Shown here: positions 23,469 to 24,516 of the stretch, one piece after another | Position numbering within the stretch: the first letter of the stretch is position 1 | Layout of the letters: each line of letters opens with the position of its first letter | Assembly: GCF_003386795.1 (NCBI RefSeq) | Contig: NZ_QTUC01000001.1 | Location: forward strand, 1,426,001 to 1,490,000 | DNA from: Thermasporomyces composti | GTDB taxonomy: Bacteria; Actinomycetota; Actinomycetes; Propionibacteriales; Actinopolymorphaceae | DNA: 64,000 nt | Reading direction: 5' to 3' | Translations under genes and position numbers: made by a program | Notes under the pieces: model-generated | What the model was told of the DNA's origin: nothing | Database searches by the model: none | Seen by the model: only the letters and a program-made list of their open reading frames with translations

Positions 23469-23497
23469 TTGTCAGGACCGCCTTTCCGGCGTACGGT
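23469..23497 (+). promoter_or_regulatory. Predicted promoter of the micro-ORF transcript
   Basis: TTGTCA (23469-23474), an exact 17-bp spacer and TACGGT (23492-23497). Transcription should start near 23504, leaving about 27 nt before the ORF. Confidence 0.6.
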
Positions 23498-23510
23498 CGG
23501 GCGTACACGG

Positions 23511-23528
23511 GAAAGGAGGTGATCCAGC
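23511..23528 (+). promoter_or_regulatory. Extended Shine-Dalgarno, 18-nt complement of 16S rRNA 3' end
   Basis: GAAAGGAGGTGATCCAGC is the exact reverse complement of the conserved actinobacterial 16S tail (GCTGGATCACCTCCTTTC). Ordinary SDs in this window match 4-6 nt. The sequence before and after does not continue as rRNA, so it is not an rRNA fragment. Confidence 0.8.
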
Positions 23529-23530
23529 GC

Positions 23531-23569
23531 ATGCATAGCTCTGGGACTCGTGAGGTGGCTGTCCGTTAG
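23531..23569 (+). CDS. 12-residue leader-like micro-ORF
   Basis: ATG through TAG encodes MHSSGTREVAVR. The case for translation is the exceptional ribosome-binding site just upstream and a well-spaced promoter. It is far too short for a folded protein; a regulatory leader peptide, ribosome-stalling element or translated small RNA is possible. No gene on the same strand follows for more than 1 kb, so it is not an obvious attenuator for a neighbour. The function is unknown. Confidence 0.5.
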   Translation: MHSSGTREVAVR

Positions 23570-23694
23570 CCGCCGTCCACACGTTGAGGACCGACTGCCG
23601 ATCACCGGCGCGTCCCGACCGCGTTCGTCGCTGAGAAAGACCGTCCTTTCCACTGAACGCCGACGGCGGCCGGCGAATCCCAGGCAGCCACCCG

Positions 23695-23740
23695 GCCCGC
23701 GGGCGCTGGACTAGTCCCCCAGCCTTGCCAGCCCGCGGGC
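23695..23740. terminator. Hairpin downstream of pdxH / micro-ORF
   Basis: 23695-23709 pairs with 23728-23740 (13 bp with a 2-nt bulge; loop 18 nt). Each arm also contains the palindrome GCCCGCGGGC. It lies 80 bp beyond the pdxH stop and can end transcripts from both sides. Confidence 0.65.
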
Positions 23741-23820
23741 TGCCTCATCCCCGGAGCGATCCCCAACACCCCAGCCCTGGCCTCGAGCGGTGCATCCCTC
23801 CCCGTCATCGGAGATCCCGG

Positions 23821-24516
23821 CTAGGGAGCGAGACGCTCCATGACCCACTGGTCGTTGACCTTGCGATAGCGGATCCGATCATGCAAGCGGCCCTTGCGCC
23901 CTTGCCAGAACTCGAACATCTCCGGTCGGATTCGGTAACCACCCCAATAGTCCGGCACCGGGATGGCCGTGCCTCGCGGCCACCGCGCTTCCGCCGCGGC
24001 GTACTCCCGATCAAGCGTTGCGCGGTCGGGAATGACGCGGGACTGTCGGCTCACCACCGCACCCAGCTGACTCTCCCACGGCCGGCTGGCGAAGTACGCC
24101 GCCACTTCCGCGCGGTCGACCTCGGTCACCCCACCGGTGACCCTCACCTGTCGGGCCATCGCGTGCCACGGGAACACCACGGCGGCCACCGGACGGACAG
24201 CCAGATCAGCGGCCTTGGCGGACTCGAGGTTGGTGTAGAACGTCAGCCCCCGGTCGTCGACGGACTTGAGCAGGACCGTGCGGGCGGACGGTGTGCCGTT
24301 CGCGTCCGCGGTCGCGAGCACCATGGCATTGGGTTCGGGCACGCCCGCCGCCACGGCGTCGTCGAGCCACCGCCGGAACTGCTCGAGCGGGTCCGCGGCC
24401 ATCTCGGCCTCGACGAGCGCACCGTCGCCGTAGTCGCGCCGCATCGCCGAGAGGTCCCGGCCACTCCTCGGCTCAGGCGAGTCGGACCGGGCGTCGGCAT
24501 GAGGTCGTTCGCCCAC
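23821..24516 (-). CDS. pdxH: Pyridoxamine 5'-phosphate oxidase
   Basis: FMN-dependent oxidase making pyridoxal 5'-phosphate. The sequence has MRRDYGDGALVEAEMAADPLEQFRRWL-type N-terminal features, VLLKSVDDRG, YTNLESAKA, FPWHAMARQVRVTG, SRPWESQLGA, and the C-terminal PxxWGGYRI-type segment followed by FWQGRKGRLHDR. With the GTG at 24516 it is 231 aa; TAAGGT eight nt upstream suggests a leaderless transcript. ATG 24444 (207 aa) is the alternative. It diverges from serC, whose product needs the PLP made here. Confidence 0.9.
   Translation of the reverse strand: MGERPHADARSDSPEPRSGRDLSAMRRDYGDGALVEAEMAADPLEQFRRWLDDAVAAGVPEPNAMVLATADANGTPSARTVLLKSVDDRGLTFYTNLESAKAADLAVRPVAAVVFPWHAMARQVRVTGGVTEVDRAEVAAYFASRPWESQLGAVVSRQSRVIPDRATLDREYAAAEARWPRGTAIPVPDYWGGYRIRPEMFEFWQGRKGRLHDRIRYRKVNDQWVMERLAP

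Follow-up and report, generated by a model that had tools for sequence, protein, structure and literature searches.

The 64,000-nt window of Thermasporomyces composti DNA analysed here encodes, on its + strand, an RNA that, judged by homology, is a member of the sRNA family RF02471. Its anatomy almost certainly comprises a translation-like reading frame, two SD elements (SD1 and SD2), the helices P0, P2 and P3, and a stand-alone context. The fold and the translation are well supported by sequence comparison, and for the function we infer a stand-alone, usually single-copy structured RNA that quite possibly works as a ribosome-gated switch, a reading we advance tentatively. Set against the published passages available, what is new is a micro-ORF that by comparison is translated, a pair of SD elements, a structure made up of P0, P2 and P3, and members of the family in spirochaetes. 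The features are as follows (window positions).

23469-23474 (TTGTCA) and 23492-23497 (TACGGT), + strand: putative promoter with a 17-nt spacer; from sequence, the layout recurring before ACAC in relatives
23505-23748, + strand: whole RNA (~244 nt), match to RF02471 Ms_IGR-5; 87.5 bits, single-sequence fold z = -3.0
23506-23509, + strand: P0 5' strand, CACG, pairing with 23549-23552; covariation AU/CG/GC/UA
23511-23528, + strand: SD1, conserved core 23511-23525; mismatch search, 16S ends, genome search, family comparison, duplex energies
23531-23569, + strand: 12-codon ORF MHSSGTREVAVR, ATG to TAG; frame and stop conservation, 12 of 12 spirochaete loci
23544-23548, + strand: P3 5' strand, GGACT, codons 5-6, pseudoknot with 23713-23717; covariation
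23549-23552, + strand: P0 3' strand, CGTG, spanning codon 7 plus the base that opens codon 8; covariation
23552-23557, + strand: SD2, GAGGTG, within codons 8-9, the stop following after 9 nt; found at all loci examined, where its codons show no synonymous change
23554-23563, + strand: P2 5' strand GGTGGCTGTC, codons 8-11, pairing with 23683-23692; covariation, fold
23564-23576, + strand: P4 5' strand, holding the stop codon; single-sequence fold, analogous stems by eye in relatives
23662-23674, + strand: P4 3' strand; single-sequence fold
23675-23682, + strand: unpaired bulge GAATCCCA (GNAANNCC in relatives, GCAATCC in spirochaetes); conserved across sequences
23683-23692, + strand: P2 3' strand GGCAGCCACC, anti-SD-like; covariation, single-sequence fold
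23693-23742, + strand: terminator-like hairpin; single-sequence fold, the 3' hairpin of the Rfam model
23693-23704 with 23731-23742, + strand: P5; single-sequence fold
23705-23709 with 23719-23723, + strand: P6, loop 23710-23718; single-sequence fold
23713-23717, + strand: P3 3' strand, AGTCC, in the hairpin loop; covariation, single-sequence fold

The micro-ORF and its SD elements within RF02471

The RF02471 covariance model matched the window at 87.5 bits (gathering cut-off 45, E 5e-18) over model positions 1-184. This was the only Rfam match in the window at the gathering cut-off, and the genome carries one copy. Rfam annotates this same RNA as a non-coding sRNA. An earlier reading, made from the sequence only, had described the micro-ORF by itself; the ORF does not stand in isolation but forms the 5' third of an RNA of this known family. 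According to the published passages available, Ms_IGR-5 is the M. smegmatis sRNA IGR-5, first seen in mycobacteria, also named ncMSMEG15794c, and SLIV_16488 in S. lividans. The same kind of source reports a transcript of the family in M. smegmatis (PMC10454040), S. lividans, where RNA-seq backs it (PMC8079986), and S. avermitilis (PMC8780764); the transcript family is real. A link to the ribosome, also supposed by the earlier reading, is likely: significant ribosome reads are described on the homologues of M. abscessus and M. smegmatis (PMC4974804, in the part available), with the authors' caution that many non-coding RNAs carry such reads and that co-sedimenting RNPs are a possible source. 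The passages available on the family mention neither the ORF, nor SD1 or SD2, nor spirochaete members, and in such passages we found no description of covariation in P0, P2 or P3. A search for M. tuberculosis names for the RNA locus found none.

SD1 (GAAAGGAGGTGATCCAGC) is an exact 18-nt complement of the 16S tail. The sequence-only reading had claimed this, and the claim holds in full, since each of the two 16S genes finishes with ...GCTGGATCACCTCCTTTCT and all 18 nt pair. It is the sole site in the window at up to 3 mismatches, where shuffled sequences lead one to expect a mean of 0.02. Exact matches to AAAGGAGGTGATCC in the whole genome were confined to the SD1 site and, in antisense, the ends of both 16S genes; allowing one mismatch gave 4 sites in 4.37 Mb, these three and a mismatched one. 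The duplex of SD1 with the 16S tail has an energy of -38.0 kcal/mol, compared with -27.8 for the next best + strand site of the window; the family median is -30.1 kcal/mol versus -17.5 for AGGAGGUGA. The widely conserved part, GAAAGGAGGTGRTCC (23511-23525), corresponds approximately to the free single-stranded 16S tail, while the last three bases (AGC), which would invade 16S helix 45, are common only to near relatives and some others. The window locus alone forms 18 Watson-Crick pairs with the tail, and most loci form 16-18 when G-U is counted. An origin from an rRNA gene, as a fragment or an antisense copy, was rejected, since only the SD stretch matches and everything else belongs to a distinct conserved RNA. 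In S. aureus, initiation with an extended SD likewise involves extra pairs (two SD-aSD pairs towards the start codon) and tolerates G-U (PMC13009471, in the part available), but here the complement spans the whole tail.

The reading frame was assessed in 179 orientated loci by asking for a start (ATG, GTG or TTG) 4-20 nt after SD1 and a frame open through GAGGTG. Both were present in the ORF frame in 174 loci, compared with 37 for one alternative frame and 1 for the second, and the ORF had 12 codons in 166 of the 174. A stop triplet lay 15 nt past the first base of GAGGTG in 178 of the 179 loci (other offsets each gave at most 11), so that the distance from SD2 to the stop is 9 nt in these loci and in 12/12 spirochaete loci, all of which keep the reading frame and GAGGTG. 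TAG, TGA and TAA interchange as stops, and ORF lengths vary by whole codons. The start follows SD1 by 8, 9 or 10 nt in 46, 78 and 43 loci, respectively, and by 5-8 nt in spirochaetes. On these frame and stop statistics we rejected a chance micro-ORF, and the comparison indicates that selection maintains the reading frame of the ORF. The sequence-only reading had named lack of conservation of the ORF or SD in relatives as what would undo it; this comparison left it standing, with 174 of 179 loci keeping the start in frame.

The loci were not all independent of SD2: 120 of the 179 were chosen with a pattern requiring GTGAGGTG, and the constancy of SD2 therefore rests on the other 59 and the spirochaetes. 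Glutamate is encoded by GAG and valine by GTG throughout, save at a single locus that carries an additional codon. Codon 7 is variable (CGT, TGT, AGT and others) and changes its residue in step with P0; these patterns indicate looser constraint on the peptide than on the RNA. The consensus peptide is M-x-x-x-R-T-R-E-V-A-A/V-R. The peptides are polar and often basic (MHSSGTREVAVR, MNSSRTREVAAR), not hydrophobic as in type I toxin mRNAs with fold-back inhibition (hok type).

Helices P0, P2 and P3

In P0, nucleotides 2-5 of the transcript pair with the four bases ending at the first G of GAGGUG. P2 joins GGUGRCUGC (codons 8-11) to GCAGYCACC, and P3 is a pseudoknot in which GGACN (codons 5-6) pairs with NGUCC from the terminator hairpin's loop. 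We tested the three helices for covariation in a MAFFT alignment of 49 sequences built without structure. Of the cells in the three helices together, 95.3% were paired, and 10 of the 18 pairs had both sides changed. Both-side changes occurred in 55 cells, versus 13.9 in shuffles, and 0 of 500 shuffles reached the observed values on any of five measures, although, with helices picked after viewing the sequences, the shuffles fall short of a formal test of significance. Sliding the helices by 1-3 columns reduced pairing to 44% or less. The fifth pair of P3 takes all four Watson-Crick types (GC 20, UA 11, AU 5, CG 4), and its first pair is CG rather than GC in two loci (L019 and L021). The formal counts for P3 and the other helices use the window row in its original register; a separate tabulation shifted this row by one column to set its register right. 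P0 was confirmed with a second alignment.

The structure drawn for RF02471 differs: its 5' helix, between SD1 and codons 9-11, showed no covariation family-wide, no both-side change and nothing above shuffles, whereas P0, P2 and P3 covary. Because the 5' pairs of the Rfam model are different ones, the covariation signal was not built in by the Rfam-based collection of sequences. The window sequence folded alone gave P2, P4, P5 and P6, with an open loop ACUAGUCCC containing the 3' strand of P3. The ORF and SD of the earlier reading are conserved, but the second half of the ORF is taken up in pairing, with partners in the 3' half of the RNA and at its 5' end.

GGAC could alternatively pair with GUCC of SD1. 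This P1 hairpin around the start codon had a mean z of -0.55, one double change and little covariation of its own; we set it aside as the main switch on account of its weak excess stability and single double change, and as an optional state it is only plausible. The bulge GNAANNCC, conserved and unpaired in both phyla, is a possible contact site for a protein or tertiary interaction. GGUG of SD2 does not change even at loci where the P2 strand opposite it does, and this suggests a second role for it beyond P2.

Distribution and genomic context

Our sample covered Actinomycetota and Spirochaetota. The Rfam model matched 57 of 296 phylum genomes and 45 of 58 near relatives. R1, a model of the 5' domain of the RNA built from 39 sequences, matched 193 of 297 class genomes, 152 of 396 phylum genomes and 11 of 296 Spirochaetota genomes. 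A pattern scan of named genomes found at least 120 loci; among the matches listed, all were actinobacterial (mycobacteria, Streptomyces, Nocardioides, Frankia, Micromonospora, Cellulomonas and others) save one MAG, 'Spirochaetia bacterium' (L111), which is among the R1 sequences. BLAST with the window RNA led to Nocardia farcinica (R1, 75.7 bits), and with a spirochaete copy to a 350-kb replicon of Leptospira interrogans (R1, 42 bits). With G+C contents between 28 and 66%, the spirochaete loci retain the parts: promoter, SD1, start, GAC, GAGGTG, stop, a GCAA/GCAG..CC bulge, a partner strand for P2, (A/G)GUC in a hairpin loop and, often, a T-rich terminator. The MAG locus is therefore no stray contaminant.

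The L. interrogans homologue (NZ_CP020413.2, about 192137-192427; L227 1501-1740) is unannotated, encodes the ORF MNDSCCKQLTCEVAEQ and lies upstream of a same-strand patatin-like gene. Most spirochaete copies (L216-L220, L222, L224) share GCAGUCGCU or a variant, absent from actinobacterial copies, in the terminator hairpin between P6 and the 3' arm. A few genomes had more than one R1 match (G988 with three, G246, G057, G422, G943 and a few others), some of them weak; these may be second copies or paralogues.

R1 had no match in roughly one third of class genomes and in the majority of the Spirochaetota sampled, so the RNA is dispensable in many lineages. Family f9, the greater part of genus g2 and several families with small genomes are among those without a match. 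The Rfam model found no match in the control genome of Corynebacterium glutamicum. The pattern of absence suggests repeated loss. A phage element was rejected, as three patterns found no match in viral contigs. The sole match in the phage collection (MT835602.1, 15373-15437; L229 2501-2565) lies in an unannotated entry labelled 'Bacteriophage sp., unverified' whose ORFs look bacterial by eye, and which is probably a mislabelled actinobacterial contig. A weak match in Collinsella (10.7 bits, E 0.017) and matches in Vibrio were taken as chance.

Upstream of the RNA, the promoter-like TTGTCA-17-TACGGT ends 7 nt before ACAC and has 8 of 12 consensus matches by eye. The earlier reading called it consensus-like. 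A consensus promoter scanner run on the window gave it no score, but TTG... and TAnnnT recur at about the same spacing upstream of ACAC in relatives. Transcription presumably starts at A23505. Downstream, the convergent pdxH ends at 23821, and no same-strand gene follows the RNA in the window; the downstream gene is also convergent in near relatives. Across lineages the neighbours include pdxH and genes for heme-binding THAP4-like, metallo-beta-lactamase/RNase Z-like, M24 peptidase and TetR proteins, as called with a crude script and checked in part with Pfam. These varied flanks argue for a stand-alone RNA. They also bear out the earlier statement that this is not a standard attenuator, and we rejected an attenuator of a fixed gene on the same grounds, as a conserved same-strand downstream gene is absent.

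Proposed function and its alternatives

An initiating ribosome covers the start codon and about 15 nt beyond. A footprint set from SD1 and the start would overlap the 5' strand of P3 and come near the 3' strand of P0, and a ribosome further on would displace P2; on steric grounds we infer that the fold and translation would be mutually exclusive. In the switch that we propose, SD1, lying 6 nt from the predicted 5' end, would capture a 30S subunit as the RNA leaves RNA polymerase, pairing with the whole free 16S tail. The ribosome would read the 12 codons, and GAGGUG, 9 nt before the stop, would hold it as it terminates. This pairing with the anti-SD is geometrically likely, since the spacing is close to the 8-10 nt between SD1 and the start in most actinobacteria. 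With a ribosome present, P0, P2 and P3 would be blocked and the anti-SD-like 3' segment GCAGYCACC left free, while in its absence the pseudoknotted fold would close and seal codons 5-11. The open or closed state would then be the signal, with RNA stability, other mRNAs or the holding of 30S as candidate outputs. The pairing with the full 16S tail and the use of codons as pseudoknot strands could mean that the fold reads the supply of free, 3'-mature 30S, although we regard this more specific proposal as rather doubtful.

The strength of SD1 had led the sequence-only reading to suggest a possible ribosome-titrating or sensing RNA, and both ideas are hypotheses here too. As a 30S decoy or store, the RNA would hold ribosomal subunits through tight binding of SD1 and SD2 to 16S tails, with the ORF secondary. 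SD1 is indeed the strongest site of the window, its exact complement occurs elsewhere only antisense to rrs, and the duplex energies (-38.0 kcal/mol here, family median -30.1) compare with -17.5 for AGGAGGUGA. Such a decoy needs neither the frame, nor the fixed stop, nor a pseudoknot over the ORF, all of which are conserved, and a single gene copy would have to near the abundance of ribosomes, so that we consider it quite improbable. Somewhat less so, but still unlikely, is a trans-acting sRNA in which P2's 3' strand or the GAAUNCC bulge pairs with mRNAs and translation merely controls exposure or stability. This would fit the Rfam annotation as an sRNA, the resemblance of UCACC in that strand to an anti-SD, the conserved unpaired GNAANNCC and the stand-alone unit with its own terminator-like hairpin. 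The conservation of the strand is already explained by its P2 partner, and we know of no actinobacterial Hfq.

Conservation of frame, start and stop in two phyla, with a T-x-E-V-A/T core kept, could point to the peptide M-x-x-x-R-T-R-E-V-A-A/V-R as the active product. The N-terminal residues vary freely, though, residue 7 may be R, C, S, Y, E, L or P, and the conserved residues coincide with nucleotides of P3, P0, P2 and SD2, with E and V confined to one synonym each, which makes an active peptide very unlikely. Least credible is a cis-acting leader or attenuator: a terminator-like hairpin does follow the micro-ORF, and a same-strand gene follows in some lineages (RNase Z-like in Micromonospora, M24 peptidase in Cellulomonas, patatin-like in Leptospira), but the downstream genes differ by lineage and are convergent in the window and near relatives.

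The ribosome-gated switch that we favour has partial parallels. In RNAIII, fold and translation compete. RNAIII/hld of S. aureus and SgrS/SgrT likewise carry a small ORF within a structured regulatory RNA; here, by contrast, the long-range helices and a pseudoknot are built from the coding codons, little seems to depend on the peptide and the SD complementarity is extreme, and the likeness is one of description only. As in dual-function RNAs, the ORF appears to be translated, from comparison (frame, start and stop) and from published ribosome reads (PMC4974804, in the part available). Leader-peptide attenuators (trp, erm), and in the passages available the attenuator-like uORF of S. aureus rbf (PMC13009471), also let the position of a ribosome on a micro-ORF decide RNA folding, as proposed here. 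The RNA described here, unlike the leader peptides, stands alone, lacking a conserved downstream gene, a codon run or a known stalling signature. A reader of 30S supply might, with considerable doubt, represent a class of regulator in its own right, whose age or mobility would account for its presence in both phyla.

Altogether, an sRNA family catalogued as non-coding appears to hold a conserved, translated micro-ORF whose codons are also strands of a pseudoknot. As a natural case of pairing with the full length of the 16S tail, it bears on what over-long SD helices do. If the proposed switch is true, a conserved and unexplained RNA would gain a testable function, and ribosome supply would be coupled to RNA folding in much of the actinobacteria (mycobacteria, Streptomyces, Nocardia, Frankia and others) as well as in some spirochaetes, Leptospira among them.
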